Below, piece after piece: positions 39,173-56,895 of a DNA stretch of 64,000 nt. The notes beneath the pieces were generated by a model that did not search any database, had not been told where the DNA came from, and was given only the letters and a program-made list of their open reading frames with translations. The stretch comes from Actinomycetes bacterium (GTDB taxonomy: Bacteria; Actinomycetota; Acidimicrobiia; Acidimicrobiales; Acidimicrobilacustridaceae), in assembly GCA_029782025.1 (NCBI GenBank), contig JAKOVR010000219.1, forward strand, positions 1 to 64,000. Direction: 5' to 3'. How positions within the stretch are numbered: the first letter of the stretch is position 1; every line of letters starts with the position of its first letter. Made by a program: the position numbers and the translations under genes.

Positions 39173-39190
39173 GTAGGCCTTGAGACCTAC
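39173..39190. promoter_or_regulatory. inverted repeat shared with the 1.47-kb site
   Basis: In minus-strand sense this is GTAGGTCT-CA-AGGCCTAC, continuing CGC. The site at 1469 reads TAGGCCT-AA-AGGCCTACGC. Both stand 20-45 bases upstream of a leftward gene. This looks like a common operator or sigma-factor element. Confidence 0.55.
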
Positions 39191-41028
39191 GGCGGGTGAT
39201 AGCTGTCACGTCGCCGGATCGGTACCGCGGGGCGGCGGAACCGGATTCGGGCCGGTCGGGGCGCTCGGCTATCCTGCCCGAACCCTCTGGGGGTGTAGCT
39301 CAGCTGGCTAGAGCGCTTCGGTCGCATCGAAGAGGCCGTGGGTTCGAATCCCATCACCTCCACCATAAGGTCCTTAATCGAACCCCGACCATCGCAACGT
39401 GGTTCGGGGTTCTTCAGTTCTTCCTCCAGGTCGTCCGCGAAGCCGGCTTGGTGGAGAAGCGCGTAGGGCTGCTTGAGCCGGGCGTAGGTGACCCCTTCAG
39501 TGTCGACGTCGATCCGCTCGAAGAAGGCCTTGTTGTGCTGCTTGCGCCCTACGGGACCCGAGCGCCGGTAGGAGTCCTGCGGCCTGTTCAGGCATGCGAG
39601 GCTTTGTTCGAGCGTCTCGCTCGCGTGCCCGAGGTCGATCGTGGCTTGCTTCACGGAACGCTGAGCGTTGTGGATCTGTTGCTCGATCTTGCGCTGCTCG
39701 CGCGCATACAGGTCGGCGGCAAGGTGGCCACCTCGCAATGCGTCGATGAGTCGGTCTTGCTCAGCGAGAAGGTTCTTGGTGATGGCTTGCTGCCGTTCCA
39801 GCTCGAATGATGCAAAGCGGTGCCGATGATCGAAGGCCCGTGCCGCCAGGTGACGGAGCCTGTGCGTCTGTGCTTCGGACAGCGAGAGCACCCCGTAGTA
39901 CGCCTCGATGCCCTGTTCGACCAGTTCGACGGGCAGGTTCGGAAGGTCGCAGTCCGACCGCTTCTGTTGCTTTGCGAGGCAGTAGAAGTAGTCGTACTCG
40001 CCTCCGTGGCGCCCGCGTGATCGAGAGAAGCCGAGGCGACTGCCGCATCGTGCGCAGTGGACGGTTCCCTTGAGGTAGTGCTGGTGCTGTCGTTGACGCT
40101 CGCCGTTGCGTCGTACGTCGAGGATGGCCTGGACCAGATCGAAGGTTTCCCTGTCGATCAGGGCTTCATGTCGGCCTTGGATGATCTGACCTTGGTGGAT
40201 GACGACGCCGGTGTAGTACGGGTTGGTCAGGATCCGATGCAGGTAGCTCATGGTGACGGGGTTGCCGCCCTTCTTGTGGGTCTTGCGCGTCAGAAGCCCT
40301 TTGGTCTCCAGCTCCTCGGAGAGCTGGCGTACCGAGTAGCGGCCAGTGGCGTAGGACTCGAATGCCCACTGGATCGACGGTGCACGCTCCGGATCAAGCT
40401 TGACGGTGGCGACCTTCTTGCCGTCGACGTCTTCGTGCACGTTCAGGTAGCCGATCGGTGCTCTGCCGATCGTGCCGCCTCGCTTGGACTTCTCGCCCAT
40501 CTTCACTCGGACCTCATCGGCCAAGTTGGCTGAGTAGAACTCGGCGATGGTCGCCATCATGTTCTCAATGAGCTGACCGCCTGGGCTGTCGTCGATCCTC
40601 TCGTTGACCGAGATCAACGCGGAGTGGTGCGTGCGAAGTTGTTGGACGATGTTGACGTGGTCGTGCAGGTTGCGTGCGAGGCGGTCGATCTTCATCACGA
40701 TGACGTAGTCGATGTCCTCGTCTGCTTCGATGCGGGCAAGCATGCGCTGCAGCTCGGGTCGATTCGCTTTGCGGGCAGTCTCGCCCCGGTCGATGTACTC
40801 GTCGACGACGATGGCGTTGAGTTCGGCGGCGCTTCGGTAGCAGGCGTCCCGCTGGGCACTGATGGAGAAGCCGTCGAGGTCGATGTCGGTCTCGGCCTGC
40901 CGTGTCGTGGACACTCGAAGGTAAATGACGGCTCGCTTGAGGCCGTCCGCTGCACCGTCGAGTGGTGTCGCTCGTCGTGTGTAGCCGCGCTTGACCACCG
41001 TCGGGGTGGTCGAGGAGGTGTTGCTCAT
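39187..41028 (-). CDS. large serine recombinase (integrase) with read-through C-terminus
   Basis: This is a 613-residue frame. The catalytic domain is AVIYLRVSTTRQ (nucleophile Ser), GFSISAQRDAC, YIDRGETARKANRPELQRML and IDRLARN; then come a recombinase domain (APIGYLNV...), a zinc ribbon with CARCGSRLGF and CDLPNLP, and a coiled-coil stretch. The last ~60 residues (from MVEVMGFEPTASSMRP) are translated antisense from the tRNA gene and the chromosome beyond. The enzyme thus ends near EEELKNPEP in its own DNA and has borrowed a stop codon after integration. AAAGGA lies 8 bases before ATG 41028. Confidence 0.92.
   Translation of the reverse strand: MSNTSSTTPTVVKRGYTRRATPLDGAADGLKRAVIYLRVSTTRQAETDIDLDGFSISAQRDACYRSAAELNAIVVDEYIDRGETARKANRPELQRMLARIEADEDIDYVIVMKIDRLARNLHDHVNIVQQLRTHHSALISVNERIDDSPGGQLIENMMATIAEFYSANLADEVRVKMGEKSKRGGTIGRAPIGYLNVHEDVDGKKVATVKLDPERAPSIQWAFESYATGRYSVRQLSEELETKGLLTRKTHKKGGNPVTMSYLHRILTNPYYTGVVIHQGQIIQGRHEALIDRETFDLVQAILDVRRNGERQRQHQHYLKGTVHCARCGSRLGFSRSRGRHGGEYDYFYCLAKQQKRSDCDLPNLPVELVEQGIEAYYGVLSLSEAQTHRLRHLAARAFDHRHRFASFELERQQAITKNLLAEQDRLIDALRGGHLAADLYAREQRKIEQQIHNAQRSVKQATIDLGHASETLEQSLACLNRPQDSYRRSGPVGRKQHNKAFFERIDVDTEGVTYARLKQPYALLHQAGFADDLEEELKNPEPRCDGRGSIKDLMVEVMGFEPTASSMRPKRSSQLSYTPRGFGQDSRAPRPARIRFRRPAVPIRRRDSYHPP
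39270..39275 (+). promoter_or_regulatory. -10 box of the tRNA gene
   Basis: TATCCT ends 13 bases before the mature tRNA 5' end, the position expected for a tRNA promoter with a short leader. No convincing -35 box is seen. Confidence 0.5.
39289..39365 (+). tRNA. tRNA-Ala (anticodon CGC), integration site
   Basis: This is a complete 77-base cloverleaf with encoded CCA. Acceptor arms are GGGGGTG and CACCTCC, containing the G3:U70 pair that identifies alanine tRNA. The anticodon arm is CTTCG-GTCGCAT-CGAAG, anticodon CGC, which reads GCG. The T arm is GTGGG-TTCGAAT-CCCAT. The mobile element begins at or inside its 3' end, so the tRNA is kept intact by the element's copy of the 3' sequence. Confidence 0.95.
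39380..39412 (+). terminator. hairpin after the tRNA
   Basis: GAACCCCGACCA pairs with TGGTTCGGGGTTC (one bulge), followed by TTCAGTTCTTCC. It suits a terminator for the tRNA. It lies inside the 3' coding end of the oppositely oriented recombinase, so it came with the element. Confidence 0.65.
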
Positions 41029-41041
41029 CGCGTGGTTCCTT

Positions 41042-41683
41042 TCAGGCTGAGGCCAGGGGTGAGAGTTCTCGGTGGTAGAGGGCGTTGTCGCCGGCTTGGC
41101 GTATGGCGCGGATCGCCCAGTCACGTGGCGGACGGCTGCATCGCGGTTGTGGTGCGATGATCCCGGTCTGATTCAGGCGTGTGGTGATCGCGGCGAGGCT
41201 GACGTGGAACTGCTGTGCGAGAGTTGGCAAGTGCTGCGTGCCGCCGGTCCAAGCACGTTTGAGCCAGGGTCGAGGCATCAGGAGGCAGCCGGCGAAGTAG
41301 TCGCAGGTCCGTTCGATGAAGTCGTGGCGGTCGGCTTCGGGGATGCCGCGATACAGCGTGTCGACGAAGGGATGGTCGACGATGTGCTTGAGTTCGTGCG
41401 CGAGGCTGAAGCGTTGCCGAACGAGAGGTTCGGCTCCGTTGAGCACGATGATCCAGCGGCCGTTGACCCAGTGCGTCGCACCGGAGACTGGCCAGGGGCT
41501 CATGCGCTCGACGTGGACGCGAGGCAGCTCGGCGATGATCCGCTCGTGCACTGGTCCGCCAGTGGTCCCGGAGATTTCGAGCAGCTTGAGCGCTTGGCGT
41601 TCAGCTACCGATAGCGCTTCCTGGCGAGTCAGCGGTCGCAGAGGCACGATGTCGCGCAGTTGTGCGAGCGTGCAGCGACTCAT
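41042..41683 (-). CDS. ImmA/IrrE-family metallopeptidase
   Basis: This 213-residue protein has the zinc motif HELKH in RFSLAHELKHIVDHPF and a downstream acidic partner region ERTCDYFAGCLLMPRPWLKRAW, the ImmA/IrrE (M78) pattern. In mobile elements these peptidases cut the element's repressor to start excision and transfer. It overlaps the XRE regulator gene by 4 bases (41680-41683), which would be its substrate. Downstream lies the recombinase, 13 bases away, so regulator, peptidase and integrase form one operon. Confidence 0.88.
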   Translation of the reverse strand: MSRCTLAQLRDIVPLRPLTRQEALSVAERQALKLLEISGTTGGPVHERIIAELPRVHVERMSPWPVSGATHWVNGRWIIVLNGAEPLVRQRFSLAHELKHIVDHPFVDTLYRGIPEADRHDFIERTCDYFAGCLLMPRPWLKRAWTGGTQHLPTLAQQFHVSLAAITTRLNQTGIIAPQPRCSRPPRDWAIRAIRQAGDNALYHRELSPLASA

Positions 41684-42138
41684 GACGCCCTCCAGGGGTG
41701 GTCCTTCGCGTTGACCGCGTCCGCGCTTGGCCTGCTCGTCGACTTCTTCTCGCGAGGCTTGGGTGGGAACACCGGCTGATCGGCGGGGATGTCGTAGTAG
41801 TTGCGAAGCAGATCGAAGTAGCGCTCAAGGTCTGCGACGGCTTCCGGCGGAAGGTCGTGGTAGCGCGATCGCAAGTACGGCGTGAAGCTAGGAAGATCGC
41901 CGTTCGGGAGCTTGTAGCCAGCGAGGGCATAAAGATCGTTCAGGGGAGCATCGAGCACCTCAGCGATTCGCTGCAGGTACTTCGGTGACGGCGATTCGTA
42001 CTGCCCGGCTTCGAGCTTCCACCAGTAGGTGGCGTCGATGCCCGCCTGTTCGGCTGCAGTTCGCACATCGAGCTGACGCGACAGGCGTCGAGTCTTGATG
42101 TAGCGGGCAAGAGTCTGATTTCGGGTATCTGTAGTCAT
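41680..42138 (-). CDS. XRE-family repressor of the element
   Basis: This 152-residue protein has an N-terminal helix-turn-helix (TLARYIKTRRLSRQLDVRTAAEQAGIDATYWWKLEAGQYESPSPKYLQRIAEVLDAPLNDLYALAG), followed by a charged ~70-residue tail. Pairing with ImmA makes it the likely ImmR-type repressor controlling excision. It is preceded by an AT-rich promoter region. Confidence 0.88.
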   Translation of the reverse strand: MTTDTRNQTLARYIKTRRLSRQLDVRTAAEQAGIDATYWWKLEAGQYESPSPKYLQRIAEVLDAPLNDLYALAGYKLPNGDLPSFTPYLRSRYHDLPPEAVADLERYFDLLRNYYDIPADQPVFPPKPREKKSTSRPSADAVNAKDHPWRAS

Positions 42139-42180
42139 TACATTATATCTCCAGTTACTTTATATTATCCCATTCCAATT
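42139..42180 (-). promoter_or_regulatory. AT-rich promoter region of the regulator-integrase operon
   Basis: An AT-rich patch in otherwise GC-rich DNA holds a perfect TATAAT in leftward sense (42147-42142) and further TATA-like runs upstream. TATAAT lies only 3 bases before the ATG, so it may not be the active -10 box; the exact promoter is unresolved. Confidence 0.4.
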
Positions 42181-42265
42181 GACGGCGATCAATGGGTTCG
42201 GACGATGGAAGTTGAGAATTGGGGCGGTTCCTCCGGGGTTAGCCGGAGGAACCGCCGTCGCCGGA

Positions 42266-42559
42266 TCACTCGGCGTCGGGCTGCTTGCGACTCCGGCTGG
42301 GTCGCTTCGGCGCGGTTGCCGGTTCGTCGTTGGTGAACAGCGTCTCGATGGCGGCTTGCCGGTTGGCGGCGTCGGCTTCGATCTGCTGGCGGATGCCGTC
42401 GGCCTTGGCTGCCAGCTCGGGGTCGGTGCGCTTGGACTCGACGTAGGTGTCGATCGCCGTGCGGATGAGCTCCGTGAGCGAGACGTCGAGCAGCTGGGCC
42501 ATGAGGCTTGCCTGGGCGTGCAGCGCGTCGTCCAGGCGGATGGCAAGGGTCTTCGGCAT
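42266..42559 (-). CDS. ribbon-helix-helix-like small protein
   Basis: This 97-residue protein's MPKTLAIRLDDALHAQASLMAQLLDVSLTELIRTAIDTYVESKR has the strand-helix-helix pattern of CopG/Arc-type RHH proteins (LAIRLDD for the strand, DVSLTELIRTAI for helix B). The rest is a charged helix and a basic tail. It may be an autoregulator or a relaxosome accessory protein, given the nearby conjugation genes. A strong Shine-Dalgarno sequence GAGGAGG precedes ATG 42559. Confidence 0.65.
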   Translation of the reverse strand: MPKTLAIRLDDALHAQASLMAQLLDVSLTELIRTAIDTYVESKRTDPELAAKADGIRQQIEADAANRQAAIETLFTNDEPATAPKRPSRSRKQPDAE

Positions 42560-42675
42560 GGGAGCCTCCTCGGTGGTGATGCGACTGACCATCCCGGGGT
42601 GGGATGGCTGGTGCAGCCGCATGGCACCGATGAGGCGTTGCCCGCCTGGCCCCGATGGGGCCAGGCGGTGCCGAG

Positions 42676-43215
42676 TCAGTCGAAGAACACATAGAGGCGT
42701 CCTTCGAACCAACTGTGCTGTGTCGTGTCGGACCAGCTGCGCCCGATCGCCTCGACGTCGATGGTGATGTGGGGTCGGATGGCTTCGGGTAGGTCGAAGC
42801 TGTCGATGTCGACGTCGAACATCTCCAGCAGCTGGTTGCCGAAGTCTTCGTGCGAGTCGTAGACGCCCTCGAAGTGGTCCTCGAACTCGGCGAGCTGTTC
42901 GTTCCATTCGGCGGGGTTCAACAGGCTGGCCCAGACAGCGAACGCGATCCCGTGGTCAGCGATGCCGGCGGCGACTTGGCAGACGTGGCCGATGGTCTCG
43001 TACTCGTCGAGGCGGAGCGGTCCGAAGCCTTCGTAGTCGTGGATGGCCCATTCCTCAGCGGGATGGATCGGCGATCGGCGCAGCATGCGATGGATCTGGT
43101 GCATCACGTCGACTTCGCTGAGAGTGGCGTCGATCCATGCGCCGTGCAGTTCGCCGTTGTTGTAGGCGGCGAGGCTTGCGACGTAGATCCGCGGGCGCGG
43201 CGACTGGCCGCTCAT
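42676..43215 (-). CDS. ardA: antirestriction protein ArdA
   Basis: This 179-residue acidic protein starts PRIYVASLAAYNNGELHGAWIDA, the ArdA signature, and continues IHDYEGF, AFAVWASLLNP, FEDHFEGVYDSHEDFGNQLLE, matching DNA-mimic antirestriction proteins that block type I restriction when DNA enters a new host. It overlaps the preceding gene by 4 bases. Its presence fits conjugative transfer. Confidence 0.92.
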   Translation of the reverse strand: MSGQSPRPRIYVASLAAYNNGELHGAWIDATLSEVDVMHQIHRMLRRSPIHPAEEWAIHDYEGFGPLRLDEYETIGHVCQVAAGIADHGIAFAVWASLLNPAEWNEQLAEFEDHFEGVYDSHEDFGNQLLEMFDVDIDSFDLPEAIRPHITIDVEAIGRSWSDTTQHSWFEGRLYVFFD

Positions 43216-43493
43216 CGGTAGTCCTGCCAGTAGCCGAGGCGACCGTTGACGAGGCTGAGCAGATCGAACAGGGTCGCGTCCTCATCGACCATGATCGGTC
43301 CGAGCCCGACTTGGTCGATGACGATCATCTCGGACGGGTCGACGCCCGCTCTCCCGACTTGGCAACGCAAGGTGCTGGGGTCGACGTCGAGCCTGAGCCA
43401 ACGTCCGGACGGTTTGCCGACGTCGACACTGATCCGGTCGGCGAAGAACACCATCGGGGTCGACTGGTCGGTCGGTTGCCTGTGAATGTGCAA
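43212..43493 (-). CDS. hypothetical protein with probable TTG start
   Basis: This is a 93-residue protein of unknown function, rich in beta strands ([37 protein letters not shown]..., then [33 protein letters not shown]). I chose TTG 43493 because AAGGAG lies 6 bases upstream; the in-frame ATG at 43517 lacks one. Its start region overlaps the 3' end of the methylase reading frame by 212 bases in another frame, and its own end overlaps ardA by 4 bases. Confidence 0.55.
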
Positions 43494-44547
43494 GGGATGC
43501 TCCTTGGGTAGGGGCATCGCCGTCGTTGGGCCGGTGCGATCGCACCGACGCCGTAGCGGCGATGCGATTGGTAGCGAGGTCCCGGTAGTTCGGGTTGAGC
43601 TCGATGCCGAGCCAGTCACGTCCGTGACGCGTGGCGGCGACACCAGTGGTGCCGGCGCCCATGAACGGGTCGAGCACGAGGCCTGGTTGCCAAGCGGCCT
43701 CACATGAGCAGGCAGCTGCGATCGGCTTTCCGTCCTGTTGGCGCCAGGGCAGTCCGCAGGTCGCGCAGACGCGGGCTGGACATGTCGCGAGCAGGGGTCG
43801 TTCGACGAGGGCTTCGGGGAACACCGCGTGGTGTGCACCTCGGAAGCCAGCGGTCGCGATGGTCCAGACGTCGCCGGGATTCTTGAGGCCCGACGGGTGT
43901 CCGGCTCGGCCTTCGGCTCGAGCTCGTTCGAGGCCGTCGTTGCGTCCGGCGAGCGGACCCGCCCAGCTGGGTCGCTGCGGGCGACGTGCGCTGGTTGCAC
44001 GACTGCCTGTATTCGACATCGCTCTTTGCGGACGAGTTGTCAACCCCCGCGTCGACTTCATCGGCACGCGACAGGTGTCGAGGTCGTAGAAGTACCGGCG
44101 CTCGCGTACGGCGTGCAGCACTGTCTCGTGCGTAGCAGTCATGCGGTCGGTGACGCTGGCGGGCGTGGGGTTCGGCTTGGCCCAGACGATGTGGTTGCGA
44201 ATCGTCCATCCGCGATCGGCGAGGCCCAGCGCGAGGCGTTGAGGCACGAGAAGGAGCCCCTTTGGTGGCGCACCGAATCGGTCGTGCCGGGAGTAGCTGT
44301 CGGCCACGTTGATGAACAGGCTGCCGGTGGGCTTGAGGACGCGAGCGATCTCGTCGCAGACGTCGAGGAGCCGCGTGAGGTACTCGGCCACCGTGGGCTC
44401 GGCGCCGACTTCGTCGGTGCCGGCGTGGTAACGCCGGAGCAGGAAGTACGGCGGGCTCGTGATGACGGTGTCGATGGAATTGTCAGGGATGGTGGCGAGA
44501 ACCGTGCGTGCGTCGCCGTCGAGGACGGTGTTGCGGGGCGAGTTCAT
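43282..44547 (-). CDS. DNA (N4/N6) methyltransferase, beta-class
   Basis: This is a 421-residue frame. Motif IV TSPPYF comes first (residues ~31-36) and motif [10 protein letters not shown] later (~295), the beta-class order of N6-adenine or N4-cytosine methylases. A central Cys-rich stretch ([13 protein letters not shown]...CSCEAAW) may hold zinc. Enzyme homology ends around [16 protein letters not shown]; the following ~80 residues look like the shadow of the overlapping small gene. No cognate nuclease lies beside it, so it is probably an orphan methylase protecting the element. It overlaps the replication-relaxation gene by ATGA. Confidence 0.85.
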
Positions 44548-45335
44548 GTCTGGTCCTCGCTCATGAGGCCGATGAACTCGTCGACGGTGCTCAACTCGAA
44601 CCCGAAGCTGCCGAGTGACTGCAGTGCTCGACTGATGACCCGGGTTCGTTCGGTGCTGTTAGCGACCCAGATCACCACCGGGAAGACGCCGACCCTGCGT
44701 TGTTCGAGTCGCGTGGCGTGGTAGTCGATGTAGGACTGCCCCTTCACGGCGAGCCGCCTCGATGAGGTGGTCCCGAGGTCGACTTCGATGAAGGCGTGCT
44801 GCTCGAACTCGCCGGTGCCGACGACTGCGTAGGCATCGGGCTTGAGCATCACCGCCTGCCCTCCGTGGTCATGGAATGGGCGCCATGCCGTCGGCTCGGC
44901 CTGGAAGTCAACTAGTTCGAGTCGTCCAGTGGCGTCGGCTTCTCGAAGCCGGACGTACAACTCGGTGATGGTGAGCGTGTGCGTGATGAACGGGGTGGAC
45001 GGCGTGCTTGGTCGCCGCTTGCGTCCGTCCCAGGACTCGGCCAGTCGTTGGCCAGCGATATCGAGCGCGTAGACGGTGGAGACCGAACCGGCTTCGAGGC
45101 CTCCGACGCGGCGTTGCAGTGGCGTGGTCAGGCCGAGGCGGGTCAGGCGCTTGAGCTGGCGGAGTCGCCGGTAACGAGCGGCTTCGTCATCGACGGGCCC
45201 GTGGTGGAGTCGTTGGAGTTGCAGCCCGGTAGCCAGTCGGACACGAGCGAGATCCGAAAGGACCTGACGATCCCGATCGTCGATGCGAGCTGAAAGCTCG
45301 GAGAGACGGGCGGGATGGGAGTATTGGCGGGTCAT
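44544..45335 (-). CDS. replication-relaxation family protein
   Basis: This 263-residue protein has a winged-helix-like N-terminus ([27 protein letters not shown]...[18 protein letters not shown]) and a nuclease-like C-terminal part ([43 protein letters not shown]), with an E-V-D and K arrangement. This matches the replication-relaxation family found on actinobacterial plasmids and conjugative elements, probably the relaxase or initiator. It overlaps the methylase gene by 4 bases. Confidence 0.8.
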
Positions 45336-45382
45336 GGGCGGGCGCCTCCGGCGCACGGCCATGACCCGTTGAGAGTCGATGG

Positions 45383-45408
45383 CAGATAGGTACAGATCTG
45401 CCTATCTG
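45383..45408. repeat. nested palindrome near the transfer genes
   Basis: CAGATAGG (45383) and CCTATCTG (45401) are perfect arms around an inner palindrome CAGATCTG. It lies in the 127-base gap upstream of the replication-relaxation gene and after the coupling ATPase. It is a candidate operator, origin or nick-region element; nothing further can be shown. Confidence 0.45.
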
Positions 45409-45462
45409 GGCAGGTCGTTCGCGAATCGACTTGTGAGGCGACCGTGCGCCCGATCGTGCGGG

Positions 45463-47754
45463 TCATGACGCCCTCCGCTTCCGGCCAGCTCTGCCTGAAC
45501 CGTCTCCGCTTTCGTCGGCTGTTGCACTCGGCTCTGAGCCTCCGATCCGAGTCGCGATGAACTCCTCGACCTCGTCGCCCAATGCGCCCCATCGCACGGC
45601 CGAGTCGGCTCGCAGCGACGCTGCGTCACCTGTCGCCGGCGGCAGGTTCCGACTTCGGAGCGTGCATGCCCGTTGGGTGGTGCCGCCGCCGTAGATCCTG
45701 GCGAGCATCTCCCAGGCGTCGAGGCCCTGGAGGTCTTCGGCGTCGACGACGCCGCCGAGCTCCCGGGCGAGGATGCGCGCATCTGCGGAGTTGAGCTGAA
45801 ATGCCAGGAGGCTTCGTACGTTCTGCACCACGCCTTGGCGGACGTCGGTGGGCAGCTGGTCGAGGTACTGCAGGGCCACCGTGACGCCGACCTTGTAGCC
45901 GCGTGCGAGAGCCAGCATGGCTTCCAGGGGTACGGGCAGGCCGGCGTAGCGGGAGAACTCGTCGAGGTAGGCCATCAGCGGCCGACGTCGTGCCGCTGGC
46001 AGTGTGGCTCGTGCCTGGATTGTGTTCCATAGGAGACCGAGCAGGATTGAGCCGTAGAGGTTGGCTGCCTCGTCGCCGAGGGTGCCCGGGCGGACGCTGG
46101 CGATCACGATGCCGCCGCGGTTGAGGTGGTTGGCCAGATCGAAGGACGGGTTCGGCTGGGCGAAGACCCGTCGGAGGCTGGGCCGTCCGAAGATGGCCCG
46201 CAGCCGTGAGAGCAGCGGCGCTGCGCGAAGAGTCTGCTCAGCGGCGCTCAGGGAGTTGAACTGGGTCCAGAACGATTTGGTGATCGGGTCGGTCTGCGCA
46301 GAGACGATTCGTGCTCGGAACGCGGGGTCGCCGTAGAGCGGGATGAGGTCGACCAGCGTTGCCAGCGGGTCGACCAGGAGACTGCGCAGGCCGAAGCGCA
46401 GCAGCTCGTCGGTCCAGATGCCGTAGTCGCCGACGAACACGCGCCGGCAGATCGACACGAGGTGTTCGACGGACGCCTCGTTTCGGTGACCGCCGATGGC
46501 CAGTGGCTGGATCCCGACCGGGCGCGACGCATCAGAAGGATCGAGCACCACCACATCAGCCCGTCGTCGATCCGGAACGAGCGCCAGAACGTCGTCGGCG
46601 AGGTCCTTAGGATCGAGGACGAAGACGCCGTGACCGTCATCGAGGTCCTGGCGAATCATGTTGGCCATGAGGGTGCTCTTGCCGGTCCCGGTAGGCGCGA
46701 CGATCCCGAGATGCCTGACTCGGCTTTCAACGTCCATCGCGGCGATTCGGTCGACGCCGTGAGCGAACCCGTCGCCGATGACGGTCCCGGCGGTCGGGAC
46801 ACCGCTCGGTACGGGAAGCTGCCGACAACCCGCGAGGCTGACGCCTGGAACCTCGACGGCGTCGATGGGCCACGCCAAGAGTTGTCCCAACTCGGCAGCG
46901 TTGACCGTCACCGGCCATGCACTCAACGGCGTCAATCGGCGCTCGAGCGCCCACGCGACCCATCGCTGCGGCAGCCAGCGGCGACGGAACTGCACGCCGG
47001 GGTTGCTGACGGGGTGTAGGGCCGTCTCAAGTCGACGTAGAAGGCTTCGCTCACGTTCGACGGTCGCGGCAGTTGCCCCGACTCGAAGGGTCGCGTGTGA
47101 TTGCGGTAGCCGCAGCTTGGTACGCCAAGCTGCGAGTTCGCCGCTGTCACGAGCCTCGTCTCGATGAGGCGAACTCGCGAGTGGCCAGCCGGTCGACGGC
47201 TTCGACTTGGTCGGTGCTGAGTGCGGCGGTGCTGCCACGCCTGCGGGGGTGACGATCCACTGCAGGACCAACTGCTCGCCGTCATCGAGCGGCCCGAGCC
47301 CATGCAGCAATCCACCGCTGATCTGAGTCGGGTTGATGCGCACTTCTCGGCGCGCCGAAGTCAATTTGTAGGTAGTGGCAGTCTCGACGTCGAGCATCCG
47401 TGCCGGTGCCTGTTCGTATCGGACCTGCGGCAGGTGTGCCCGAAGCATCTGCTCGACCCGAGCCTGACGTCGTTCGTTGACTGCCACCCAGAACTCGACA
47501 CCCGCCGGTGTGGCGACTGCTTCGAAGCAGATGATCGGGCTGACATACAGGCGGGCTTTCCACCACGGAAGGCGCAAGCCGCTTGTTGCGGCGAGGAAGT
47601 CGGTGATCGCATCGGCCGGTAGCCGTCGCGGGAACGTCAACCGCAACCCGACGAGGTTGCGGCGCTCGTCAGCCGCGTAGGTCGCTCGCCACCAGATCGT
47701 GCCGGCGAGCCACAGCAGAGCGATGATGAGGAGGAGTGCGACGATGGTCAGCAC
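45463..47754 (-). CDS. conjugative coupling / DNA-transfer ATPase (TraG/VirD4-like)
   Basis: This 763-residue ATPase has one N-terminal membrane helix (MLTIVALLLIIALLWLAGTIWW). The motor domain has Walker A APTGTGKST near residue 355, VFVLDPKDLADDV, Walker B LMAYLDEFSRYAG, and the sensor region VTVALQYLDQLPTDVRQGVVQNVRSLLAFQ. It would pump element DNA through a transfer channel. Preceding genes overlap it (47748-47754). The residues around 60-340 form a large variable domain. No VirB4 or channel subunits are visible, so the element may be mobilizable or use a simple actinobacterial system. Confidence 0.88.
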   Translation of the reverse strand: MLTIVALLLIIALLWLAGTIWWRATYAADERRNLVGLRLTFPRRLPADAITDFLAATSGLRLPWWKARLYVSPIICFEAVATPAGVEFWVAVNERRQARVEQMLRAHLPQVRYEQAPARMLDVETATTYKLTSARREVRINPTQISGGLLHGLGPLDDGEQLVLQWIVTPAGVAAPPHSAPTKSKPSTGWPLASSPHRDEARDSGELAAWRTKLRLPQSHATLRVGATAATVERERSLLRRLETALHPVSNPGVQFRRRWLPQRWVAWALERRLTPLSAWPVTVNAAELGQLLAWPIDAVEVPGVSLAGCRQLPVPSGVPTAGTVIGDGFAHGVDRIAAMDVESRVRHLGIVAPTGTGKSTLMANMIRQDLDDGHGVFVLDPKDLADDVLALVPDRRRADVVVLDPSDASRPVGIQPLAIGGHRNEASVEHLVSICRRVFVGDYGIWTDELLRFGLRSLLVDPLATLVDLIPLYGDPAFRARIVSAQTDPITKSFWTQFNSLSAAEQTLRAAPLLSRLRAIFGRPSLRRVFAQPNPSFDLANHLNRGGIVIASVRPGTLGDEAANLYGSILLGLLWNTIQARATLPAARRRPLMAYLDEFSRYAGLPVPLEAMLALARGYKVGVTVALQYLDQLPTDVRQGVVQNVRSLLAFQLNSADARILARELGGVVDAEDLQGLDAWEMLARIYGGGTTQRACTLRSRNLPPATGDAASLRADSAVRWGALGDEVEEFIATRIGGSEPSATADESGDGSGRAGRKRRAS

Positions 47755-47927
47755 GGGCGCTCCTCCTCGTCCTCCGTTGGCGTTGGTTGAGCGACCGGAC
47801 CCGTCTCCTGTGGGTGCTCGACTTCGGCCTCGTTGTCGTCGAGCATCAACATGACGGCCACGACGAGTGCGTCGAGGTCGGGTTCGGTCCGCAGGTGCGG
47901 GGTGATACGGATCCGGCCGCTCGGCAT
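47748..47927 (-). CDS. small acidic protein with EPDLDALVVAVMLMLDD motif
   Basis: This 59-residue protein begins MPSGRIRITPHLRTEPDLDALVVAVMLMLDD; the rest is an acidic, proline-rich tail. The 17-residue block EPDLDALVVAVMLMLDD recurs exactly in a 78-residue protein at 59101-59337, although the two genes use different codons. The block looks like an amphipathic or membrane-skimming helix. A near-ideal Shine-Dalgarno sequence AAAGGAGGTGG precedes ATG 47927. The end overlaps the ATPase start by 7 bases, indicating coupled expression with conjugation. Confidence 0.7.
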   Translation of the reverse strand: MPSGRIRITPHLRTEPDLDALVVAVMLMLDDNEAEVEHPQETGPVAQPTPTEDEEERPC

Positions 47928-48032
47928 GGATCCACCTCCTTTCTTGGTTGGTTGATTAGTTCTTGTGCGGGCGCGCGGAACCAGGACCTCGAAGGTCAAG
48001 CGATCCGCCGCCCGTACTCACGCCTTCGCATA

Positions 48033-48063
48033 GGCGGTGCGTCGCCGTCAACAGGCGACCGCC
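48033..48063 (-). terminator. hairpin after the small membrane-protein operon
   Basis: GTCGCC and GGCGAC pair around GTCAACA, and flanking GGCGG/CCGCC can extend the stem. It lies just past the stop of the last small gene in leftward sense, with no U tract. It may separate that operon from the downstream ATPase operon. Confidence 0.45.
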
Positions 48064-48071
48064 ACGTTGGA

Positions 48072-48242
48072 TTAGGAGCGGCTGTCCTTCTTCCCGCGAA
48101 TGCTGGTGAATCCCTCGACGAGCACGAGGCAAAGCAAGAACATCGCGAGCGGCATCAGCAACAACTTGAGCAACTCGCCAAGCAACACGACGGCGATGCT
48201 GGCAAGCAGCGTGAGCGCCACAGCGCCGATGAGGCGCCTCAT
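48072..48242 (-). CDS. small membrane protein
   Basis: This 56-residue protein is almost entirely one or two membrane helices (LIGAVALTLLASIAVVLLGELLKLLLMPLAMFLLCLVLVEGF) with a basic tail. Its ATG overlaps the stop of the upstream gene (ATGA). It is the last of five small overlapping genes. A role in a transfer channel is inferred only from context. Confidence 0.55.
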   Translation of the reverse strand: MRRLIGAVALTLLASIAVVLLGELLKLLLMPLAMFLLCLVLVEGFTSIRGKKDSRS

Positions 48243-48460
48243 GGTTCGCTCGGCTCGGACGCGGGACGGAACAGAGCGAGGATGGCTTGCCCGCCCAGTG
48301 AGGTCCACCGGACCAGAGCGCAACCCAGGATCCACGTGACCTGCAGGCGCAGGGCGATGCGTTGGATTCCGTCGAGCCGGAACATGCCCCCGGTGATCAT
48401 GGCGAACAGCGCCCACACGTCGACCGCGACCACGACGAAGATGATGTCGAAGCTACTCAC
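48239..48460 (-). CDS. small membrane protein
   Basis: This 73-residue protein from GTG 48460 (VSSFDIIFVVVAVDVWALFAMITGG...) has a membrane segment at each end (also LQVTWILGCALVRWTSLGGQAILALF). It overlaps both neighbours (8 and 4 bases). Family unknown; it is part of the same coupled micro-operon. Confidence 0.55.
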   Translation of the reverse strand: MSSFDIIFVVVAVDVWALFAMITGGMFRLDGIQRIALRLQVTWILGCALVRWTSLGGQAILALFRPASEPSEP

Positions 48461-48683
48461 GGGGCTTACCTCGCAGTTCGCGGAACAGTTCACGTCGCAC
48501 CTGTTCGGCCTGCACCTTCCCGTCCGCTTGGTACGTGAGCCGGTCGAGCTCGCCCCGCAACTCGTGCAAGGCGATCCGCTGTGCCGACGTCGCCTCATCG
48601 TCGTAGTGCCACATCCACCGAGTAGCGGCGATGCCGAGCAGCACCAAGATTCCCAACACCGAGAGGCAGATCACGAAGTCCAT
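48453..48683 (-). CDS. small membrane-anchored protein
   Basis: This 76-residue protein has an N-terminal membrane helix (MDFVICLSVLGILVLLGIAA) and a charged helix (SAQRIALHELRGELDRLTYQADGKVQAEQVRRELF) that could form a coiled coil. It overlaps the upstream gene in another frame by 13 bases. Unknown function; the layout is typical of small channel or holin-like accessory proteins. Confidence 0.55.
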   Translation of the reverse strand: MDFVICLSVLGILVLLGIAATRWMWHYDDEATSAQRIALHELRGELDRLTYQADGKVQAEQVRRELFRELRGKPRE

Positions 48684-48955
48684 CGACGCCACCCCCTTCG
48701 ACCACGGCGTCGGCTCGTGACCCGCTGTGCCGCATCGAGCGCCTGCCACTTGCGAGCCATCAGCGGGCCCATCTCGGGCTGCCCTCGCTCGGCAGCGACA
48801 CGTTCAAAGTGATCGAACATCGCGTCTGGCACAAGCACTCCGTCCGCCTCGTCGAGGTGGCGCGGTTCGCGGTGGCCGCGGCTGCGGAGTTGATCGACTC
48901 TGGTCACCATGACGCCACCGAGGGCGCCGGCGCAGAAGGCGAAGATGAGATCCAT
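48671..48955 (-). CDS. small membrane-anchored protein
   Basis: This 94-residue protein starts MDLIFAFCAGALGGVMVTRV, a membrane or signal-like helix, then a soluble part ending in a very basic tail (SRRRGRRGWRRW). ATG 48955 forms a TGATG overlap with the previous stop, the best start; an ATG at 48970 is an alternative. Unknown function. Confidence 0.55.
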   Translation of the reverse strand: MDLIFAFCAGALGGVMVTRVDQLRSRGHREPRHLDEADGVLVPDAMFDHFERVAAERGQPEMGPLMARKWQALDAAQRVTSRRRGRRGWRRWTS

Positions 48956-49254
48956 CACCCTCGCCTCCATGCCAGCTTCTGCAGCCGGACGTTGTTGGCC
49001 GCGTTCAGATCGACGGTCTTGCGGCGAGTGATCTCCTCGAGGAAGCGGTCACCTCCGGCGAGGCACATCCCGTAGGCGTAGGTCCCGGCCTCTTCCTCCA
49101 GGTCTGCCTGCGCGACGTCGGAGAGGACCTGGCCGTCGATGAGTGCCTTCGTGCGGTCCTCATGGGCGATCAGCGCGTGCCGTTTGATCTCCCGTGCCGA
49201 CTGCCGTTCGAGTCGAGCTGGCGAGTTCGGTCGGTAAGGGACTGGTGATGTCAT
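48955..49254 (-). CDS. hypothetical soluble protein heading the micro-operon
   Basis: This is a 99-residue, mostly helical protein (SARLERQSAREIKRHALIAHEDRTKALIDGQVLSDVAQADLEEEAGTYAYGMCLAGGDRFLEEITRRKTVDLNAANNVRL) without membrane segments. It is the first of five overlapping genes leading toward the conjugation ATPase. No family recognised. Confidence 0.6.
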   Translation of the reverse strand: MTSPVPYRPNSPARLERQSAREIKRHALIAHEDRTKALIDGQVLSDVAQADLEEEAGTYAYGMCLAGGDRFLEEITRRKTVDLNAANNVRLQKLAWRRG

Positions 49255-49419
49255 CGGCTCTCCAATCAGCCTCAGGGGCGGGATGCTCCTGTGTCAGCGA
49301 TCAGAGATACGGCGACAACGCAAGCGAGTTCAACGGGTTCGTGTCCTCCGCCCGTGAAGATCACCACATGCGCGACACCGTCGAACCGGCTGGTGAAGAT
49401 CGGTGAAGACAAGCACAAC

Positions 49420-49451
49420 ATATTGACGAACATCAATATATGTGGTACCGT
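49420..49451 (+). promoter_or_regulatory. promoter with operator palindrome over the -35 box
   Basis: TTGACG (49423-49428) and TACCGT (49446-49451) are 17 bases apart. ATATTGA-N6-TCAATAT (49420-49439) is a perfect inverted repeat covering the -35 box. This is a repressible promoter for the rightward gene at 49526, leaving a ~70-base leader. Confidence 0.7.
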
Positions 49452-49466
49452 TGTTTGGTTAGCAGA

Positions 49467-49483
49467 GCCCGCGTGAAGCGGGC
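49467..49483 (+). terminator. leader hairpin 1
   Basis: GCCCGC-GTGAA-GCGGGC forms a 6-bp GC stem right after the transcription start region. The leader of the gene at 54589 has the same kind of stem (GCCCGCT-CC-AGCGGGC). It may stabilise or attenuate the leader. Confidence 0.45.
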
Positions 49484-49502
49484 CTGCGGCTCGTGGAACT
49501 CG

Positions 49503-49521
49503 GGCTCCTTCGAAAGGAGCC
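49503..49521 (+). promoter_or_regulatory. leader hairpin 2 containing the Shine-Dalgarno sequence
   Basis: GGCTCCTT-CGA-AAGGAGCC is a perfect 8-bp stem whose right arm holds the AAGGAG ribosome-binding site of GTG 49526. The site is sequestered when folded, so translation is probably controlled by this structure. Confidence 0.7.
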
Positions 49522-49525
49522 AAGA

Positions 49526-49882
49526 GTGGTCCACGACCAGTCGGCGGCTCCGCAGCCGCCGTTTCGCCCGCCGCCGAGTTATCCGGCGGCCGACCCCGAC
49601 GAACCCGTGAAGGTGTTCGTCATCTACATCCAGCACTCGACCACCAGTGACGCCGTGCTGGCGTGGGCGCTCGAGCTTGTCGCCCGCGGCGTCGATGTGA
49701 CCATCTGGGACTACGACGCCGAACCCCTCAACTTCAGTGAGGGCATGGGCTACGAACGAACCGGGGTGCCGATCATCACCGTCGAGTACATCAACGACGG
49801 CGGGCACCTGGAGATCATCGAGGACGTCGGCGTCACGGCCGACATCCTCAACGAGTACCGCGAGATGTTTCCCGCCCCGTGA
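49526..49882 (+). CDS. thioredoxin/glutaredoxin-fold-like protein lacking cysteines
   Basis: This 118-residue protein has a proline-rich N-terminus followed by KVFVIYIQHSTTSDAVLAWALELVARGVDVTIWDYDAEP and GVPIITVEYINDGGHLEIIEDV. The beta-alpha-beta order and the cis-proline-like GVPIITV recall glutaredoxin/NrdH folds. There is no cysteine at all: the CxxC place reads HSTTSD. It is therefore not a redox enzyme, perhaps a binding or decoy version. It has an elaborate promoter, a two-hairpin leader and a strong terminator of its own. I am moderately sure it is real and unsure of the fold. Confidence 0.6.
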   Translation: MVHDQSAAPQPPFRPPPSYPAADPDEPVKVFVIYIQHSTTSDAVLAWALELVARGVDVTIWDYDAEPLNFSEGMGYERTGVPIITVEYINDGGHLEIIEDVGVTADILNEYREMFPAP

Positions 49883-49886
49883 CGCG

Positions 49887-49919
49887 CAGAGCCCCGAGGT
49901 CGATGACCTCGGGGCTCTG
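49887..49919. terminator. strong hairpin terminator
   Basis: A 15-bp perfect stem (49887-49901 with 49905-49919) around GAT, just past the stop of the preceding gene. It could also act leftward for other transcripts. Confidence 0.8.
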
Positions 49920-50037
49920 TCACGTCTGCTGACGTGGCGACCTCCGGAGAAGTCGCGGGCGGGACGTAGTCTCGCCAGGCCGGCACATGGTGCGGACGCT
50001 GTCCGCACCGGGTTCCATCTGCACTTTGTGACACGCA

Positions 50038-50562
50038 CTACGCCGTGGGCGCAGTGCTCAGCTTTGCCAAATCAGGATGCTTCGAAGTGAAGATCCTTTG
50101 CACCGTGAGGTCCATGTAAGCCCGCATCGGGGTCCGATACCACGCCCGGTAATGGGCTTCGGACCCGCCGTCGTCGTAGCCTGACCGCCGCATGATGACC
50201 ATCTGCCTTGTGCGATACCCCTCTTGCGTATCGCCCTGGTGATCGCACTCACCGATGGCGAAGAGGGCGGAGATGATCGTGGCCGCTCGCTCGTCCTCCA
50301 GCCGCAGCTCCTCGACGAGGTGCTTCAGTTGCCAGAGGACATACCCACTAGCCGAGAACCCGGTGGTGGTGCTTGCCGTCTCAATGAAGTGACTGCTCAG
50401 TAGCTTCGGGCATCGCTTCGCGATGTGAGCGACTGATGCACCGACCGGGATGAGGCTCCGCAGCTCCGCTGAGTACACCGCTCGGTCTGCAGAACCGAGC
50501 TGCGAACCCGACGGGGTACTACCGTCGAGAACGCTCATGGCTATGTCGATCCGGCCGCTCAC
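50038..50562 (-). CDS. hypothetical protein
   Basis: This 174-residue protein is mainly helical (LIPVGASVAHIAKRCPKLLSSHFIETA, GYVLWQLKHLVEELRLEDERAATIISALFAIGECDH) with a tail of strands (HYRAWYRTPMRAYMDLTVQRIF). No membrane segments or recognisable motifs. The start is GTG 50562 (GGAGG 13 bases upstream); ATG 50538 is an alternative. It lies beside the restriction cassette on the opposite strand, and its relation to it is unknown. Confidence 0.5.
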   Translation of the reverse strand: MSGRIDIAMSVLDGSTPSGSQLGSADRAVYSAELRSLIPVGASVAHIAKRCPKLLSSHFIETASTTTGFSASGYVLWQLKHLVEELRLEDERAATIISALFAIGECDHQGDTQEGYRTRQMVIMRRSGYDDGGSEAHYRAWYRTPMRAYMDLTVQRIFTSKHPDLAKLSTAPTA

Positions 50563-50795
50563 GAGCGACCGCCTCCGTCTAGCCCGAGGCTCTCATCACC
50601 GCCGCCCGACACGGAGCCGGTTGGCGGAGTGGGTTGCTGGTCATGGTGTGACCTCCTTCTGAGCTCCTTTCTGTTCGTGAGCTAGCTCAGGCCGGCTCGA
50701 AGCCGGCAGCGCCGAGAGTACCGCTCTGCCTCGCAGCGTGCTCGCGTCGGCTGCGCGGGTGCATCGTTCGCCGGAAAGTGCTGAGATCGTTGGTG

Positions 50796-51239
50796 ATGCC
50801 ATCGAAGCCCGCCCTGCCGTCGTACGCCACGGATGCTGCGGTCCGTGAGCGGATGCAGAAGCAGCCGCGCGAGGGCACTCAGCCCGAGTTGGCGCTACGC
50901 CGGGCGCTGCATCGGAGGGGGCTTCGCTATCGACTTCACCGAGCGATCGTCCCTGGCACGAGGCGCAAGGTCGACATCGTGTTTGGACCGGCGAGGGTGG
51001 CCGTCTTCGTCGACGGCTGCTTCTGGCACGGCTGTGCGAAGCACAATCCGAGACCACCGAAGGTCAACACGTGGTACTGGCCAGACAAGATCAAACGGAA
51101 CCGCGATCGCGATGCGGACACTACGGACCGGCTCACGTCGGCAGGCTGGCTCGTCGTGCGCGTGTGGGAACACGAGTCACCAGAGGTCGCCGCTGGACGC
51201 ATCGCTGCATTGGTTGAAGCGCGCCGATCGGCCGTCTGA
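50796..51239 (+). CDS. vsr: very short patch repair (Vsr) endonuclease
   Basis: This 147-residue Vsr family nuclease has AVRERMQKQPREGTQPELALRRALHRRGLRYRLHR, then KVDIVFGPARVAVFVDGCFWHGCAKH (metal Asp and zinc/His residues) and WEHES near the end. Vsr nicks the T:G mismatch made when 5-methylcytosine deaminates, protecting genomes that carry a C5 methylase. The C5 methyltransferase gene follows directly, so both belong to one restriction-modification cassette. Confidence 0.92.
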   Translation: MPSKPALPSYATDAAVRERMQKQPREGTQPELALRRALHRRGLRYRLHRAIVPGTRRKVDIVFGPARVAVFVDGCFWHGCAKHNPRPPKVNTWYWPDKIKRNRDRDADTTDRLTSAGWLVVRVWEHESPEVAAGRIAALVEARRSAV

Positions 51240-51379
51240 GCAGGTCACAGGCCATCCGCGTGCTGGCTAGGGGCGCCCGGTAGCGTCGGTCGAGCGGCCG
51301 CGGCCTGCGTGCTAGGCATCTGGATCGAGCGCGGTTGCCAATCGTACATCTGTTCGATAGGCTGCGGCCGGGAGCACTG

Positions 51380-52423
51380 ATGGCGAAGGACACGACGAAG
51401 ACGCAGCCCAAGGCCAGGCGCCAGCCGAAGAACCCCGCTGTGGCGAAGCCGGAGCAGGGTGCGTTCTTCGATGCTACCGATGAGCCGCGCGTCAAGGTAG
51501 CGAGCTTCTTCGCCGGGATCGGTGGCTTCGATCTCGGTTTCGAGCGAGCTGGAATGGAGTCGGTGTGGCAGTGCGAGAAGAAGTCGTTCTGCCTGGACAT
51601 TCTGGAGCAACACTGGCCGCACGTCCCGAGGGCAGCGGACATCACGGAGGTAGATCCCGATGACATCCCGAACGCAGAAGTCTGGGCGGGCGGGTTCCCG
51701 TGCCAAGACGTCAGCCTCGCCCGCATGGGCCCCCGCAGCGGGCTCCGTGGCAAGCAGTCTGGACTCTTCTACGACTTTGCAGAGCTCATTGGAGACCGTC
51801 GCCCCCCTCTTGTCGTCCTCGAGAACGTTGCAGCTCTCCTCTCTTCCCACGACGGAAGAGATTTCGCAATCCTCCTACGGACGCTGGCCGACTTCGGGTA
51901 TGGCGTCGCATGGCGAGTGCTTGACAGTCGATACTTCGGCGTCCCCCAGAGCCGCAGTCGAGTCTTCATTGTCGGATCTCTTGGAGGGCCCGCCAGTGCC
52001 GGATCGGTACTTTTTGAGTCCGAATGCGGCGACCGGGATTCTGAGAAGAGCCGATCGAATGGGGAGAAACTTGTTTCCCCCTTTCAGATCAGCGTTGGAG
52101 ATTCTCGCAAAGGGTTCGTCAAGAAGCTCGCGCACTGCCTCTACGCCGAGTCAGCCCGCCACACCGGCACGGACTGGTCGCGCAACTATGTCAGCTACCC
52201 GGAAGGCAAAGTCCGCCGGCTGACTCCCCTTGAGACGGAGCGGCTCCAAGGCTTCCCGGACGACTGGACAATGCCGAAGGAAGCGATGGACAACCTCGAC
52301 ATGCTCGATTCGGCTCGTTACCACGCCTGCGGCAACGCCGTTTCGGTTCCGGTGGCCGAGTGGCTCGGTAACCGCATCGTCGAACAGCTCGGCGCCTGGC
52401 TGCTCAAGCAGCAGATCGGCTAA
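51380..52423 (+). CDS. DNA cytosine-5 methyltransferase
   Basis: This 347-residue C5 methylase has motif I FFAGIGGFDLGFERAG, motif IV GGFPCQDVS (nucleophile Cys near residue 107), motif VI LENV, motif VIII-like SRSRVFIVG, and the late motifs LTPLETERLQGFPDDW and YHACGNAVSVPVAEWLG. The target recognition region (~200-255) is short. GGAG precedes ATG 51380. It overlaps the convergent HNH nuclease gene by 4 bases, making a compact type II system with vsr. Confidence 0.95.
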   Translation: MAKDTTKTQPKARRQPKNPAVAKPEQGAFFDATDEPRVKVASFFAGIGGFDLGFERAGMESVWQCEKKSFCLDILEQHWPHVPRAADITEVDPDDIPNAEVWAGGFPCQDVSLARMGPRSGLRGKQSGLFYDFAELIGDRRPPLVVLENVAALLSSHDGRDFAILLRTLADFGYGVAWRVLDSRYFGVPQSRSRVFIVGSLGGPASAGSVLFESECGDRDSEKSRSNGEKLVSPFQISVGDSRKGFVKKLAHCLYAESARHTGTDWSRNYVSYPEGKVRRLTPLETERLQGFPDDWTMPKEAMDNLDMLDSARYHACGNAVSVPVAEWLGNRIVEQLGAWLLKQQIG

Positions 52424-53592
52424 GCGAGCACGATCGACAAGTCGTCGTAGAAGCGCTCCAGGTACTTCTTCTTTGGCCAGTCGTTTCGATCGTCTGGCAA
52501 CCACTCCTCCGGTACTTCAAGGCCGTCTTCGGCGAGAAGGTAAGCGCGGGCATCGGCTGTGAGTAGTGCGTTGGCTCGAGTAGTAAACCGGAGGTGGTAC
52601 TTGCCGCCCTGCAGCACTGGCACCATGATCGCCGCATCAAAGGCCCAGTGATGCAGCCGGCACAGCGCCATGCCGTTGCTGACGACGTCGAGGTCGTAGT
52701 TGGTCCAGGCGAGGATATGGGCAGCATCAACACCGGAGGGCAGCCCACCAAAGCCGCCGAGCACCACGCCGCAGAACAAGCAACGGTGCCGATAGGCCTC
52801 CCGTACGGCCTTTGAGAACTCACGGGCCGACGGACCCCGAGCCTTGCTGAGCCGGTAGTCATGCGCTGATCGAACACGAACTTCGACGTCCTCCTCCCCG
52901 ATGTCATCGGGGGGTGGAAGATCAGGCACGTCGGCGATCTGGATGCCAACTCTGCGCTCCAACGCTGGCAGTGGGTCGTGGCCCTCGACGTAGGCCGGGT
53001 CCGCCTCGGCTAGCGCAGCGACGATCCTGTTGACCACATTCGGCAGCGAGGTCGTGATCGGCTCACCGGTGTTGATCTGGTCCTGGTGAAGACGAAGCAA
53101 TGTCGCTACTCGCGCATCCTGTTGCGCAACGGAGGCATAGATCGCCTCGATACGCCGCCAGCGCGCTTCGACGCCGAGCTGCTCCGTGTGCTCTCGGTTC
53201 TCCACCTCTACATAGTTGGGCGTGAACTGCACCGATTCGGGCGGTGATGCAAACGAGGTGCCAGGCCCGAAGCCGACCTTCTTCAGGAAGTATTCGCCCT
53301 GGCGGATGACCGGCAGCCCCACGGCCGACGCGGGTAGCTCGCGCCGCGGTGCCGGCAGTAAGAGCATCGACGCCACCATCCGACCGATCTGAAACTCCGG
53401 CTTGACGAGCGAGCGAAGTCGAGGTTTGCCGCTGTCGCCAGGGTCGAGCCACAACTGAGTGTCACGCAGCTTGCCGTCGGGCCAGAGCATGTGGAAGGTC
53501 CAGCCTTCGAGGTCGCTCGCAGACTGACCGCTCGCCCCGCTGACGATCTCGTACTCGCCGCGTCCACCCGACGTCCGGAAGCCGATGTGCAC
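52420..53592 (-). CDS. HNH restriction endonuclease
   Basis: This 390-residue protein has a C-terminal HNH domain CLFCGVVLGGFGGLPSGVDAAHILAWTNYDLDVVSNGMALCRLHHWAFD, with the paired cysteines and catalytic histidine of McrA-like enzymes. The N-terminal ~220 residues are probably the DNA-recognition part. It is convergent with and touching the C5 methylase gene, so it is most likely the nuclease of that system. Confidence 0.85.
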   Translation of the reverse strand: MHIGFRTSGGRGEYEIVSGASGQSASDLEGWTFHMLWPDGKLRDTQLWLDPGDSGKPRLRSLVKPEFQIGRMVASMLLLPAPRRELPASAVGLPVIRQGEYFLKKVGFGPGTSFASPPESVQFTPNYVEVENREHTEQLGVEARWRRIEAIYASVAQQDARVATLLRLHQDQINTGEPITTSLPNVVNRIVAALAEADPAYVEGHDPLPALERRVGIQIADVPDLPPPDDIGEEDVEVRVRSAHDYRLSKARGPSAREFSKAVREAYRHRCLFCGVVLGGFGGLPSGVDAAHILAWTNYDLDVVSNGMALCRLHHWAFDAAIMVPVLQGGKYHLRFTTRANALLTADARAYLLAEDGLEVPEEWLPDDRNDWPKKKYLERFYDDLSIVLA

Positions 53593-53651
53593 AACGACAG
53601 GCTATGCGGCATCAGGCAGCTGGCACCGGATGCCAGATGTCAGATGCCAGA

Positions 53652-53939
53652 TCACCCCGGATCGGGTGGGACATCCCCGCCATCCGCAGCCCGCTTCCGT
53701 TGCTTCCACTCGCGACTGCGCTTGTTCTTGGCCTCTCGGCACTTGTTGCAGCGGCAGCCAGTGTCGTAGCGATAGGTCGTGCCGTGCTTGCCTCTGCCGC
53801 CTTCGGCTTGGTACCGAGCGATCAGCTCACGGTGCGCCGCAGCGTTCGCTGCACGGCACTCGGCGCAACGACAGCCGCCGTACTGGTACTCGTAGATCGA
53901 TCCGTGACCTCGGGGTCGCGCCTTCTTCTTCCCGGCCAT
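53652..53939 (-). CDS. two-repeat zinc-finger-like protein
   Basis: This 95-residue basic protein contains the same module twice: HGSIYEYQYGGCRCAECRAANAAAHRE and HGTTYRYDTGCRCNKCREAKNKRSRE. Each has GCRCxxC, probably zinc-binding together with the histidine. This module is common in actinophages and mobile elements. It is probably a small nucleic-acid-binding protein. Just upstream lies the palindrome ATAGGC-C-GCCTAT (53953-53965). Confidence 0.7.
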   Translation of the reverse strand: MAGKKKARPRGHGSIYEYQYGGCRCAECRAANAAAHRELIARYQAEGGRGKHGTTYRYDTGCRCNKCREAKNKRSREWKQRKRAADGGDVPPDPG

Positions 53940-53952
53940 GCGGCCCACGACT

Positions 53953-53965
53953 ATAGGCCGCCTAT
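53953..53965. promoter_or_regulatory. 13-bp palindrome upstream of the zinc-finger gene
   Basis: ATAGGC-C-GCCTAT begins 13 bases upstream of ATG 53939, overlapping where its promoter should be. It is a likely operator; the regulator is unknown. Confidence 0.45.
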
Positions 53966-54169
53966 GCCTGACTACGATGGAGGGTGCTGAGCATCTTGGT
54001 GGCGCCCCAGGGCTCGCCGACGAGTCGGATGTGGACGCCAACACGATCAATCAACGGAAGGCGCGCTACCCAACTTCCCGAAGCCAGTACGCGCGTCCTG
54101 GAGGCAGGAAGCGTGGGTGCGACACGAATGCTTGCCCCCCGCACGGGGGCGCACCCCTTGGCTTAACTT

Positions 54170-54406
54170 CTAGCGCCGACCACCCGAACGCTGTGTCCCG
54201 GCAAGAAGCGTCAGCGGGTCGACGTCCAGAGCCTCGGCAAGTCGCTCCACGCTCCGAAGGCTGAGGTTGCGTTCGCCTCGTTCGATGCCGCCCATGTAGG
54301 TGCGGTGGACGCCCACGAGGTCGGCCAGGGCCTCTTGGGAGATCCCGCGCTCTTCCCGCCACGCCCGAACGTTGCGGCCGACGGTCTTCTGGAGGTCACC
54401 TTCCAC
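54170..54406 (-). CDS. small XRE-family regulator
   Basis: This 78-residue protein is just a Cro/CI-type helix-turn-helix: VGRNVRAWREERGISQEALADLVGVHRTYMGGIERGERNLSLRSVERLAEALDVDPLTLL. Such minimal XRE proteins often control restriction-modification cassettes (C proteins) or toxin genes. It is divergent from the gene at 54589, with an inverted repeat between them. Confidence 0.85.
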   Translation of the reverse strand: MEGDLQKTVGRNVRAWREERGISQEALADLVGVHRTYMGGIERGERNLSLRSVERLAEALDVDPLTLLAGTQRSGGRR

Positions 54407-54428
54407 GCACGGACCTTGTCCGTTGTGG

Positions 54429-56888: not shown

Positions 56889-56895
56889 GGCGTCC

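Follow-up and report, generated by a model that had tools for sequence, protein, structure and literature searches.

A large serine integrase gene probably divided at its own attP by integration at a tRNA gene

In the archaeal suicidal integrases (SSV1, pTN3 and pT26-2; PMC8371274), attP lies within the integrase gene and integration at a tRNA gene divides that gene, and a 2021 review describes this self-splitting design as exclusive to archaea. For the bacterial phage Mx8 of Myxococcus, integration is described as altering the C-terminus of the integrase IntP, the gene of which extends across attP (Tojo 1996, as cited in PMC4383910). With these precedents, an integration-altered C-terminus is not new in principle. 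Mycobacteriophages with integration-dependent immunity carry attP inside the repressor gene, and their viral and prophage repressors differ at the C-terminus; some of these phages integrate at tRNA 3′ ends (PMC8092301). Large serine integrases typically do not use tRNA genes (PMC4383910, PMC8092301). Here we characterize an integrase gene at tRNA-Ala(CGC) of an Actinomycetes bacterium (GCA_029782025.1), within a window of 64,000 nucleotides (contig JAKOVR010000219.1, positions 1 to 64,000; Table 1). The locus is probably an integrative element that carries attP inside its own large serine integrase gene, which integration would cut at the core.

Table 1. Features of the tRNA-Ala(CGC) locus, in window coordinates.
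Feature	Position	Strand	Remarks
Large serine integrase, integrated form (613 aa)	39187..41028	minus	554 element codons, then core, antisense tRNA-Ala and chromosome
tRNA-Ala(CGC), integration target	39289..39365	plus	ARAGORN; T-arm constitutes the attB half-site motif, TCGAA 12 bp from the core
Terminator-like hairpin just 3′ of tRNA-Ala	39380..39412	plus	z-score -3.7 against 200 shuffles
att core ATGGTGG at attL	39360..39366	minus	Antisense to the 3′ end of the tRNA; codes for Met-Val when read with the integrase; exact crossover bases inferred
Putative P′ arm of attP, within the integrase CDS	39367..39390	minus	GGTCGGGGTTCGATTAAGGACCTT; relatives have conserved P′ arms; symmetrical to the P arm
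Putative P arm of attP	57973..57997	minus	TCGAACC motif at 17 bp from the core (5 bp more than the attB distance); repeat D14
att core ATGGTGG at the far element end	57998..58004	minus	Starts the HTH ORF in the integrase phase used at 39366
C-terminal module: linker and tandem HTH	57591..58004	minus	HTH_38 and HTH_7; continues the integrase frame through the core
Serine element A, ~18.6 kb	39360..58004		Boundaries inferred from the cores
HTH1, a second HTH module that begins mini-element X and has a core and P arm of its own	59984..60400	minus	HTH profile, att arms

The integrase ORF (39187–41124, minus strand) is free of stops up to the tRNA gene, crosses the whole of it in antisense and ends at a TAG (39189–39187) about 100 bases beyond, as an earlier note on this DNA had described; an ORF check agrees. 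Translation most likely starts at ATG 41028, with AAAGGA upstream, to yield 613 amino acids. The final 59 codons, core included, are read from core, tRNA and chromosome, close to the ~60 antisense-tRNA and chromosomal codons of the earlier note. On the basis of its domains, the product is assigned to the large serine recombinases: Pfam Resolvase (PF00239, 2e-32) is followed by Recombinase (PF07508, 3e-15) and Zn_ribbon_recom (PF13408, 3e-9), and a PHROG integrase is matched at 4e-91. Across 33 relatives, the YLRVS motif with the catalytic S40 is nearly invariant, and R90, R116 and R119 are invariant. Sequence matches in the PDB were 3bvp and 6dnw, and the nearest solved relatives include the TP901-1 and A118 integrases. 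In the AlphaFold model of the integrated form, approximately the first 540 residues are folded and residues 560–613 have pLDDT values below 50; the tail read from the tRNA and chromosome is predicted to be disordered. Read on the opposite strand, the 3′ coding part at 39380–39412 also provides the tRNA with a strong terminator-like hairpin.

As a control, we read the three antisense phases of 32 tRNA genes that lack an integrase of this kind; the 50 codons leading up to the T-loop contained no stop at 10, 6 and 5 of these genes, one count per phase (16–31%). A lone run-through is therefore unremarkable in GC-rich DNA, and the case depends on the integrase family. We searched for relatives in the same order, class and phylum (draft assemblies, some incomplete) with a query that lacked the C-terminal tail, which makes the search unbiased as to run-through. 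It returned about 77 near-full-length integrases, mostly 33–49% identical to the query, the named ones being from Actinomycetota (bacteria). The earlier note had proposed comparing related elements at other tRNA genes, and of the 65 relatives in which a tRNA with a recognisable T-loop was available, 62 read antisense into the T-loop in one and the same phase, with GAA as one codon; by this sequence comparison, the phase lock is far beyond chance. The phase-locked relatives have 32 different distances between the conserved domain and the T-arm (the linker), the family's targets cover 23 anticodons, and target type has switched at least 27 times on the tree. That target and linker changed repeatedly yet a single phase was kept points to selection on translation across the core. 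Within several groups of relatives, differences also fall preferentially on the third position of codons, both before and after the core. Two further relatives (L084 and L089) enter tmRNA genes on the antisense strand with the phase unchanged, which extends the family's target range to ssrA.

The earlier note had considered that a stop codon might have been lost by mutation in this strain; the arrangement is common to the whole integrase family. Could the run-through be nothing out of the ordinary in GC-rich DNA where attP overlaps the end of int, with a tail that has no role in either state? Open antisense frames are indeed common at the control tRNAs, the tail is predicted to be disordered and the frames of some relatives end within the tRNA shortly after the core, but this reading is very improbable given one phase despite so many linker lengths, an HTH partner and fused ORFs (both described below). 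We did not retain selection for the antisense-tRNA peptide as an explanation, because the sequence past G-x-E-P varies with the target and an HTH on the attP side explains the phase better; the tail sequence as a whole differs between relatives. Stops supplied by the antisense anticodon loop account for many ends of integrated forms and not for retention of the frame. Reconstruction of an empty site yielded none, as the family relatives align over the tRNA for the most part and over little of the flanking DNA.

The HTH partner was recognized in two relatives (L030 and L047), in which the integrase tail recurs at the far end of the element as far as ...LV and the frame then continues into an HTH domain. 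A profile built from these two modules detected HTH ORFs in additional elements as well, upstream of the integrase and on its strand, including 58004–57591 and 60400–59984 at our locus. An order-wide search gave 14 integrase/HTH pairs on the same contig, 15–49 kb apart, and in all 14 the two lay on the same strand in the same order, with the HTH ORF upstream. Among 25 elements with upstream DNA read, several over short stretches, no HTH was found in 14, and five (L052, L065, L074, L077 and L090) were read upstream for 40 kb without one. A low-GC clade of relatives keeps the phase and has no detected HTH; it may have another C-terminal module or none. The AF2 model of the 57591–58004 product is folded and contains two HTHs; a fold search with this model gave no PDB match at E <0.001, the best being a CRISPR-repeat binding protein, followed by the bipartite domain of Tc3 transposase. 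The same genome carries two more HTH modules in a region with no tRNA nearby and no integrase detected (L186; G000:C67:82000-93000), one of which has the same P arm.

Joining the element ends in silico produced an uninterrupted 691-codon Int–HTH frame with attP inside it, the sequence at the joint being GGGGTTCGATTAAGGACCTT-ATGGTGG-CCCTTAGTGGGCGGTAC-TCGAACCCC, a plausible serine-integrase attP judging from its core and arms. The circular joint of 39367 and 58004 would read AAGGACCTTATGGTGGCCCTTAGTGG. The tRNA frame is absent from attP—the earlier note had named its presence there as evidence against a change of C-terminus—and the integrated and circular forms must differ at the C-terminus, as that note had claimed. 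Its interpretation holds for the change of C-terminus itself; its stress on the antisense-tRNA tail was misplaced, since the informative part is the tandem HTH (57591–58004) that the tail replaces.

The arm motif on the P side lies 17 bp from the core in 18 of 27 sites (20 with a looser motif), and the attB motif, located in the tRNA T-arm, lies 12 bp from the core in 49 of 53. The structure of the tRNA dictates the 12-bp spacing, so only the 17-bp spacing counts as independent evidence. In work on A118 and LI, the attP motif of large serine integrases reportedly sits 5 bp farther out than that of attB. The corresponding 5-bp difference here suggests that the integrase reads the universal T-arm sequence; if true, such recognition would open many tRNA genes to the family.

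Three elements share tRNA-Ala(CGC): serine element A, mini-element X and an older island with a tyrosine integrase. Element A carries an M78 peptidase, an XRE-type HTH protein, an N6/N4 methylase, Replic_Relax, a T4SS-type ATPase, Vsr, a C5 methylase and HNH, and would be an integrative element, probably one that is conjugative or mobilizable; a tRNA-Ser(CGA) gene (49478–49569) lies within it as cargo. Mini-element X (58005–60400; 2.4 kb, AT-richer at ~46% GC) is bounded by two attP-like cores and has its own HTH; a search of 58005–60400 found no integrase, and X is possibly a cis-mobilizable mini-element moved by the integrase of its neighbour. The older island (contig 60400–69461; L012 1-5461) encodes a tyrosine integrase (64494–65690, PF00589) and an HTH_17 excisionase-like protein. 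A perfect 49-bp direct repeat of the 3′ part of the tRNA gene occurs at 39318–39366 and at contig 69413–69461. Our first model took the whole 30 kb between these repeats as the element, with a circular integrase ending in a 57-residue tail (SREVLTAVV...). For all the perfection of the repeat, this model is scarcely credible, and we dropped it because the far copy has an attB-type rather than an attP-type arm and adjoins the tyrosine integrase and its excisionase; in addition, serine cores are short (5–8 bp; PMC8092301), and the P arm and HTH are found at 58004. Repeats of the 49-bp type are also absent from most integrase relatives. The copy at 69.4 kb marks the end of the older tyrosine-integrase island.

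Partial forms of a joined gene occur elsewhere. In three genomes, a single ORF unites the C-terminal domain of the integrase, the att core and the double HTH (377 aa in L179/L153, 296 aa in L185/L206 and 265 aa in L180/L207). When sought by DNA pattern alone, nine complete attP sites were found in 357 genomes and none with the reversed pattern; all nine lie in ORFs with an integrase tail, in the predicted phase, and six of these ORFs continue into the HTH. The fused ORFs have no integrase N-terminus and look like remnants at old junctions of stacked elements. An intact full-length Int–HTH ORF was found in none of the phage, plasmid or viral collections, and the absence of such a gene is the main gap in the case. 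In L207 and L210, two complete att cores stand just 69 bp apart in one open frame; this double core is a minimal element remnant with one P arm and one P′ arm.

These ORFs also bear on whether the HTH ORF is instead a gene in its own right, encoding a regulator or directionality factor, which lies against attP and has its translation start at an ATG or GTG in the core; the run-through would then arise incidentally, because attP overlaps the 3′ end of int. The core at 58004 does offer ATG GTG as possible starts, HTH ORFs occur as orphans without a nearby integrase (for example, on G000:C67) and mini-element X has an HTH and no integrase. We nevertheless consider a separate gene unlikely, given that the phase shared across the core would have to be a coincidence, that most relatives have no ATG at the core and no conserved start after it, and that integrase domain and HTH are united in single ORFs.

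Returning to a gene that spans attP, the circle would carry, in order, the integrase (catalytic, Zn-ribbon and coiled-coil parts), the P′ arm, the core TGGTGG, the P arm and the tandem HTH, and would make the full 691-aa Int–HTH protein. Recombination at the tRNA 3′ end, where the T-arm matches the GGTTCGA arm motif of attP, would cut the gene at the core: the N-terminal part would stay by the tRNA and gain a short disordered tail read antisense from it, and the HTH part would be left as an orphan ORF at the other element end. Integration at the tRNA thus very likely splits the integrase gene, as far as the sequence can tell. The HTH may be needed for integration or regulate it, and through its loss integration would limit itself until the element is excised, whether by the HTH-less enzyme and a partner or by the enzyme of a related element. 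Integration would presumably alter integrase activity. It might even serve a widespread bacterial family of serine integrases as a direction switch, in which Int–HTH from the circle integrates, removal of the HTH leaves an enzyme of different activity or direction, and the position of attP partly replaces a directionality factor—a tentative proposal to which we give slightly less than an even chance.

If correct, self-splitting integrases extend from archaeal tyrosine to bacterial serine recombinases; as the two classes are unrelated, the design would have arisen convergently. The family would also represent serine integrases that use many tRNA genes, apparently through the universal T-arm, a use that an island-database paper called unknown. 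It would supply a naturally occurring way of controlling direction that can be tested; direction control is a central issue for serine integrases, which are widely used genome-engineering tools. Annotation truncates or misjoins such integrases, for the integrated copy is not the whole protein. In a literature search that covered few subscription journals, we recognised no paper on a serine integrase with attP in its own gene, which leaves priority unproven.

Among the known systems, TP901-1, A118, phiC31 and Bxb1 share with this integrase the Resolvase, Recombinase and Zn-ribbon domains, a short core and the 5-bp offset between attP and attB arms; to our knowledge, attP is not inside the gene in any of the four, and none has a C-terminal HTH. 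In mycobacteriophage immunity, the altered protein is a repressor and the integrase is a tyrosine enzyme. Mx8 IntP resembles the present case in being a bacterial integrase with a C-terminus changed by integration; it is reportedly a single case, a tyrosine integrase from one phage, and we know of no family-wide phase lock or separable domain for it. The archaeal suicidal integrases match the proposed design most directly in their attP-containing, tRNA-divided genes, to which the joined frame and partial fusions described here correspond. Unlike those tyrosine enzymes, which have their catalytic part separated, the bacterial serine enzyme keeps its catalytic domains and would lose a C-terminal HTH; it would work like a suicidal integrase and is not a member of that family.
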